Assembly (NCBI GenBank): GCA_022820645.1
Contig: JAJEFD010000013.1
Location: 321,308 to 385,307 of the forward strand
DNA: 64,000 bases
Direction: 5' to 3'
From: Dehalococcoidia bacterium
GTDB taxonomy: Bacteria; Chloroflexota; Dehalococcoidia; Lucifugimonadales; Australimonadaceae
Positions 4,929 through 5,018 of the stretch are shown here, piece by piece (position 1 is the first letter of the stretch; each line of letters opens with the position of its first letter). The notes below the pieces were generated by a model. It had not been told where the DNA came from. It did not search any database and saw only the letters and a program-made list of their open reading frames with translations. The position numbers and the translations under genes are program-made.

Positions 4929-4940
4929 GAACATGCGTTC
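4929..4940. promoter_or_regulatory. LexA/Cheo-box-like operator 1 (GAACATGCGTTC)
   Basis: Exact GAAC-N4-GTTC. Confidence 0.65.
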
Positions 4941-4949
4941 TAAACAGTG

Positions 4950-4978
4950 TTGACAGCGTAGAACAGGCGTTCTAGTAT
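4950..4978 (+). promoter_or_regulatory. Sigma-70-type promoter TTGACA-N17-TAGTAT
   Basis: Consensus -35 at 4950-4955, 17-nt spacer, -10-like TAGTAT at 4973-4978, upstream of ORF starting 5019. Confidence 0.65.
4961..4972. promoter_or_regulatory. LexA/Cheo-box-like operator 2 (TAGAACAGGCGTTCTA palindrome core)
   Basis: Exact GAAC-N4-GTTC, lies inside the -35/-10 spacer. Confidence 0.7.
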
Positions 4979-4990
4979 GCCTGCAGCGTA

Positions 4991-5002
4991 GTACATACGT
5001 TC
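4991..5002. promoter_or_regulatory. LexA/Cheo-box-like operator 3 (GTACATACGTTC)
   Basis: One mismatch to GAAC-N4-GTTC, same flanks (GCGTAG...GTTCT) as box 2. Confidence 0.6.
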
Positions 5003-5018
5003 TGCCAGGAGTAGTGGG

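Follow-up and report, generated by a model that had tools for sequence, protein, structure and literature searches.

The 64,000-nucleotide stretch of DNA analysed here (the window) comes from the genome of a marine Dehalococcoidia bacterium (Chloroflexota) of the SAR202 type, and it contains a two-gene unit whose promoter is flanked and filled by three LexA-type boxes. The first gene, open reading frame 1 (ORF1), encodes a homologue of the phage terminase large subunit (TerL) with predicted loss of both active sites, and the second, ORF2, a small helix-turn-helix (HTH) protein with four conserved cysteines (Table 1). We consider it highly probable that these are boxes of the host LexA over a domesticated, phage-derived gene pair, reduced from a fuller LexA-boxed operon that relatives in the same order retain. 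Strong comparative evidence leads us to infer that all three boxes are host LexA operators. The unit is apparently the last remnant of a DNA-damage-controlled set of phage-derived genes that is fuller in relatives; the window's family would have lost the portal and capsid and kept the dead terminase and the HTH protein.

Three clustered boxes over one promoter

The boxes follow the pattern GAAC-N4-GTTC, the LexA motif of Gram-positives (Cheo box). Their positions and letters agree with those given in a previous reading of the window made from its sequence alone (the sequence-only reading), as do the distances between box starts, 32 bp from box 1 to box 2 and 30 bp from box 2 to box 3. That reading also placed box 2 exactly between a TTGACA and a TAGTAT element, and we find the same: the −35/−10 spacer is 17 bp long and its last 12 bp are box 2. 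Promoter prediction concurs, with TTGACA/TAGTAT as the only sigma-70-like promoter called in 4850–6850.

We assessed how unusual the cluster is against the whole genome (2.75 Mb, 66% GC) and 12 simulated order-2 Markov genomes. A lone GAAC-N4-GTTC box has little meaning at this base composition and is not significant: the genome holds 70 exact matches, and the window 30 near-matches against 21.7 expected, a ratio on which we rejected the other near-matches in the window as operators. The locus is the sole triplet in the 2.75 Mb with at most one mismatch in total within 80 bp, and boxes 1 and 2 are the sole exact pair within 40 bp; the simulated genomes contained no such triplet and no such exact pair. 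When a 14-bp matrix was built from five other sites, the three boxes ranked 5th, 7th and 8th in the genome, the rest of the top eight being the seeds themselves. High-scoring matrix sites are no commoner in the genome than in a mononucleotide shuffle of it, and matrix score alone was therefore rejected as proof of an operator. Position, clustering and conservation carry the case instead.

Conservation is extensive. Of the family's 17 genomes, 16 have one copy of ORF1, and in all 16 loci ORF2 follows it directly, in line with the proposal that the boxes govern the two genes 3′ of them. Two to three boxes, about 24–33 bp apart, lie upstream of each of the 16 orthologues; a lack of them there would, by the sequence-only reading, have counted against it. 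The promoter alignment of the genus agrees: its conserved blocks are the boxes, TTGACA and TANTAT, and box 3 is kept in five of six members (it is missing in G001). Eight of nine loci checked place the pair near prfB, the exception again being G001.

The host LexA and a small predicted regulon

The genome encodes one clear LexA, at C16:122041–122688 (TIGR00498, E 3.5e-53), which is also its single S24 peptidase match. Inspected by eye, this protein retains the hallmarks of a self-cleaving LexA: an Ala-Gly cleavage site together with the Ser and Lys residues. In its own gene, AGAACGCACGTTCT lies 3′ of a TTGACA-type promoter and 5′ of the start codon. Of 30 lexA upstream regions examined across the host and its relatives, 26 contain a Cheo-like site whose core has one mismatch or none, and 25 of these sites lie within about 105 bp. 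The LexA/Cheo identity first assigned to the boxes is thus supported both by the lexA sites and by conservation among orthologues.

Other strong boxes of the same type occur at C7:80944, C16:101079, C16:8082 and C14:105499. The genes found at such boxes are a putative DNA-repair radical SAM gene (its TIGR03916 match is below the curated cut-off), a gene pair of DnaD-domain/DnaC-like type that follows dnaB, and two ORFs of 62–65 amino acids (aa) that are related to each other, one of them divergent from a serine recombinase. The most plausible reading of the boxes is as LexA operators of a small predicted regulon. The uvrB gene of the window (37893–40001) has no box directly upstream, as had been noted from the letters alone; in the stretch from 37601, the only one-mismatch match 5′ of uvrB begins about 290 bp before its start. 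A Dehalococcoides LexA is reported to use a box of the Gram-positive type, for which no open paper was found, and open papers likewise yielded no published Chloroflexi LexA box.

A terminase-like ORF1 and a four-cysteine ORF2

Pfam, PADLOC, PHROGs and NCBIfam gave nothing useful for the window's ORF1, so it was identified only through its relatives and its fold. Order-level homologues (L017–L024) have complete terminase motifs (ARQGGKNELSAQ, LLEVDEAQ, VLYGTPW, AGIDLAGG, VVVDATGLG and GHDDF). One of these intact homologues matches PHROG terminases (7.5e-11) and aligns over 98% of its length, at 30% identity, with the Bacillus phage vB_BboS-125 terminase. An AlphaFold2 model of ORF1 (predicted local distance difference test (pLDDT) 87, predicted template-modelling score (pTM) 0.81) matches solved large terminases, with a best E of about 1e-15 and a TM of about 0.65 to D6E.

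The catalytic positions of ORF1 have diverged. At Walker A and B it reads AGVNELASQ and LIQVVDAH, versus GGKNELSAQ and LLEVDEAQ in intact relatives, and at the nuclease positions ASIVVTRA, VLVRVRTSR and HDEGF, versus AGIDLAGG, VVVDATGLG and GHDDF. Members of the window's family have other residues in place of the Walker A lysine, of the nuclease aspartates and, L016 excepted, of the Walker B acidic pair. The ratio of non-synonymous to synonymous substitution rates (dN/dS) is 0.14–0.36 for ORF1, a range that speaks against a plain pseudogene, and there are no internal stops in ORF1 or ORF2. Judged from sequence and model together, ORF1 has a large-terminase fold under purifying selection, with predicted loss of ATPase and nuclease function. 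Outside the window, the same genome contains another terminase-like ORF, unrelated to ORF1 and 508 aa long (C9:293806–295332; PF03237, E 6.9e-6), which adjoins a small coiled-coil membrane ORF and a Rieske-type oxygenase gene and has no phage genes around it.

ORF2, a single-copy gene in the window's genome, ends in an HTH, and its C-x5-C-x2-C-x4-C cysteines are invariant in 29 of 29 homologues; dN/dS is mostly 0.04–0.11. A genome collection with named records yielded 80 ORF2 loci, nearly all of them bearing SAR202, Dehalococcoidia or Chloroflexi labels. Within the 1650 bp 5′ of the HTH gene, exact boxes occur at 0.738/kb, compared with 0.011/kb elsewhere in the same 80 loci (about 67-fold). 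Stand-alone HTH genes follow the same pattern, with an exact box within 160 bp of 35 of the 39 that have enough upstream DNA. A defence-system reading was dropped, the weak mads_1 HTH match being generic HTH similarity.

A fuller gene set in order relatives

Related loci show four architectures. The fullest has a box, small membrane and helical ORFs, an intact TerL and the HTH gene, with a portal gene downstream or elsewhere; the window's family has the pseudo-TerL and the HTH gene; a third form combines half a TerL, without Walker A, with the HTH gene; and the fourth is the HTH gene alone. Terminases cut to about half length keep the HTH gene and the boxes. A tree of the terminase N-terminal part (root not fixed) separates window-family, half and intact forms as three well-supported groups. 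The truncated G009 and G014 terminases fall within the window family in that tree, which makes two or more losses of the nuclease half probable. The range of forms, from the full set through dead or half-length terminases with the HTH gene to the HTH gene alone, suggests that a host SOS system captured a phage packaging operon, which was then reduced to varying extents while its LexA operators were retained.

In the order relatives, a few phage-derived packaging and head genes are spread over several chromosomal loci. All eight TerL-intact genomes have a portal gene (PF05133, 2.4e-19 for one), and six of the eight have a capsid gene or fragment of HK97 type at a separate place (phrog_212, 6e-76 for one). 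A box whose core has one mismatch or none precedes five of the six examined capsid starts, at a distance of about 50–80 bp; boxed HK97-type capsid operons were seen at L184:4782, L185:2770, L186, L173 and L175. None of the 17 window-family genomes was found to hold a portal or a capsid gene, and the window locus was rejected as a gene transfer agent because its genome lacks both. On four IMG/VR contigs (L197, L199, L200 and L201) a related capsid gene follows a four-cysteine HTH gene at about 1.1 kb, an arrangement in favour of a phage origin.

Proposed mechanism and alternative explanations

We propose that LexA bound to box 2 would sit on the core promoter, between the −35 and −10 elements, and that box 1, just 5′ of the promoter, and box 3, just 3′ of the start site, would be bound as well. 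Because they are about three helical turns apart, the boxes should lie on one face of the DNA, and LexA on all three would impose tight repression. DNA damage would then trigger LexA self-cleavage and relieve this repression, after which ORF2 would bind DNA and act downstream, with ORF1 as a non-enzymatic partner. Of the phage-derived genes, the one for the HTH protein persists most widely and often stands by itself 3′ of LexA boxes, so that this protein is the most likely functional core. We see an even balance for and against the fuller version of this idea, in which the HTH protein is a second-tier, SOS-induced DNA-binding regulator derived from a phage gene and the dead terminase, where retained, serves as partner or scaffold.

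Several observations weigh against a host-LexA operator over a domesticated pair. The sequence-only reading had proposed checking lexA and recA for the same operator; it is present at lexA, and recA has no site even at two mismatches in the 225 bp upstream. The loss of ORF1 activity is deduced from residues. Relative to G001, dN/dS of ORF2 rises to 0.3–0.5. The tie of ORF2 to phage regulators is a weak one (phrog_836, 6.7e-6 for one homologue and 0.014 for the window protein), and its model has no fold match in the PDB below E 0.1; the best Foldseek value is 0.13, with weak resemblance to Mu Mor and sigma region 4. Finally, portal genes located away from the TerL operon showed no box 5′ of them.

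Two other accounts of the window locus fit the evidence less well. The boxes accompany the HTH gene through all architectures, as would be expected if they were operators of the HTH protein itself, which would then regulate its own gene. However, lexA of the host and its relatives has this box too, as do repair and replication genes without an adjacent ORF2 homologue, ORF2 has no second copy in the window's genome, and GAAC-N4-GTTC is an established LexA motif, which makes such autoregulation very improbable. The pair could also be a functionless, decaying prophage remnant whose operators lag behind. All catalytic motifs of ORF1 are lost, ORF1 evolves faster than its neighbours (91% versus mostly 92–98% in G004), portal and capsid are gone and half-length forms occur. 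Decay nonetheless appears unlikely, given that dN/dS is clearly below 1 in both ORFs with the reading frames uninterrupted, that the pair is kept in all family genomes but one and the boxes across family and order, and that truncated forms retain the HTH gene and the boxes. The neighbours at the window locus are dehydrogenase, prfB and transporter-type genes, on which ground we rejected a live prophage there.

The fuller set in the order relatives may be an ordinary scattered prophage or satellite rather than a gene-transfer-agent-like set, a possibility we take seriously while leaning somewhat away from it: every part has phage homologues, and the IMG/VR contigs pair the four-cysteine HTH gene with a related capsid. 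Against this, the genes for TerL, portal and capsid are found on separate contigs or with housekeeping genes between them, no integrase or replication gene was seen alongside in the stretches read, and portals and capsids are mostly 64–77% identical between different families of the order. We tentatively raise another possibility, that SAR202 and related Dehalococcoidia carry a gene transfer agent under direct LexA control at several dispersed loci, which would be the first in Chloroflexota according to the papers searched, and that the window's SAR202 family has been stripped to a dead motor and an HTH protein that now act as a host SOS effector.

Comparison with known systems

The operator type is already known. 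Like the Gram-positive Cheo box, the window operator reads GAAC-N4-GTTC, lies over a core promoter and recurs at lexA; it differs in having three boxes about 30 bp apart with one in the spacer, in the boxless recA and in its phage-derived target. ORF1 shares the two-domain fold of phage TerL proteins (D6E, Sf6 gp2, HK97 and T4 gp17), all of whose motifs the order homologues keep. Unlike them, ORF1 has lost the catalytic residues and is chromosomal, adjoining prfB with no phage genes around. Phage late transcription regulators of the phrog_836 type are matched by one ORF2 homologue, which lies beside terminase and portal genes; ORF2 differs from these in its invariant four-cysteine N-terminal motif and in often standing alone in host chromosomes behind LexA boxes.

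Features listed for gene transfer agents include a gene content limited to packaging and structural genes, location at several loci and a phage origin (PMC11841831). With their small number of phage-derived genes for packaging and heads, scattered over several loci, the order relatives resemble RcGTA, BaGTA, VSH-1 and Dd1 (PMC11841831). They belong to another phylum, have LexA boxes immediately at the operons for terminase and capsid, and are known from genes alone. The window's genome differs in lacking portal and capsid. The papers searched, with most subscription papers outside their coverage, contained no report of gene transfer agents in Chloroflexi or Dehalococcoidia, or of LexA or terminase in SAR202. 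Nor did they describe a dead terminase under SOS control together with a four-cysteine HTH protein, or LexA-boxed, dispersed packaging and capsid operons in Chloroflexota.

SAR202 bacteria are abundant in the dark ocean and in sponges and have for the most part not been cultured; those papers contained nothing on their SOS response. The locus offers a concrete, testable and small candidate LexA regulon in this lineage, and hints that a gene transfer agent driven by LexA may exist in a phylum for which those papers mention none. It also supplies a pseudo-enzyme derived from a viral motor, the role of which is testable.

Feature map and neighbouring genes

Table 1. Features of the boxed two-gene unit (positions in the window)
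Feature	Position	Strand	Remarks
LexA box 1, GAACATGCGTTC	4929–4940		Exact GAAC-N4-GTTC, directly 5′ of −35; kept in orthologues
−35 element, TTGACA	4950–4955	+	Invariant in genus alignment
LexA box 2, GAACAGGCGTTC	4961–4972		Exact GAAC-N4-GTTC, in −35/−10 spacer; kept in orthologues
−10 element, TAGTAT	4973–4978	+	TANTAT across genus
LexA box 3, GTACATACGTTC	4991–5002		One mismatch; expected just 3′ of transcription start
Ribosome-binding site, AGGAG	5007–5011	+	7 nt 5′ of ATG, read from sequence
ORF1, 436 aa	5019–6329	+	Terminase large-subunit homologue; ATPase and nuclease active sites predicted lost
ORF2, 103 aa	6405–6716	+	C-x5-C-x2-C-x4-C motif, C-terminal HTH
Perfect 9-bp inverted repeat, AGAGGCCGG/CCGGCCTCT	6760–6788		3′ of ORF2, read from sequence; possible terminator without clear T run

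Terminator prediction made no call at the inverted repeat 3′ of ORF2. Divergent from the operon lies a short-chain dehydrogenase gene (4031–4841, minus strand) that is called as two ORFs of 160 and 105 aa; both pieces match separately in G004 and G003 too.
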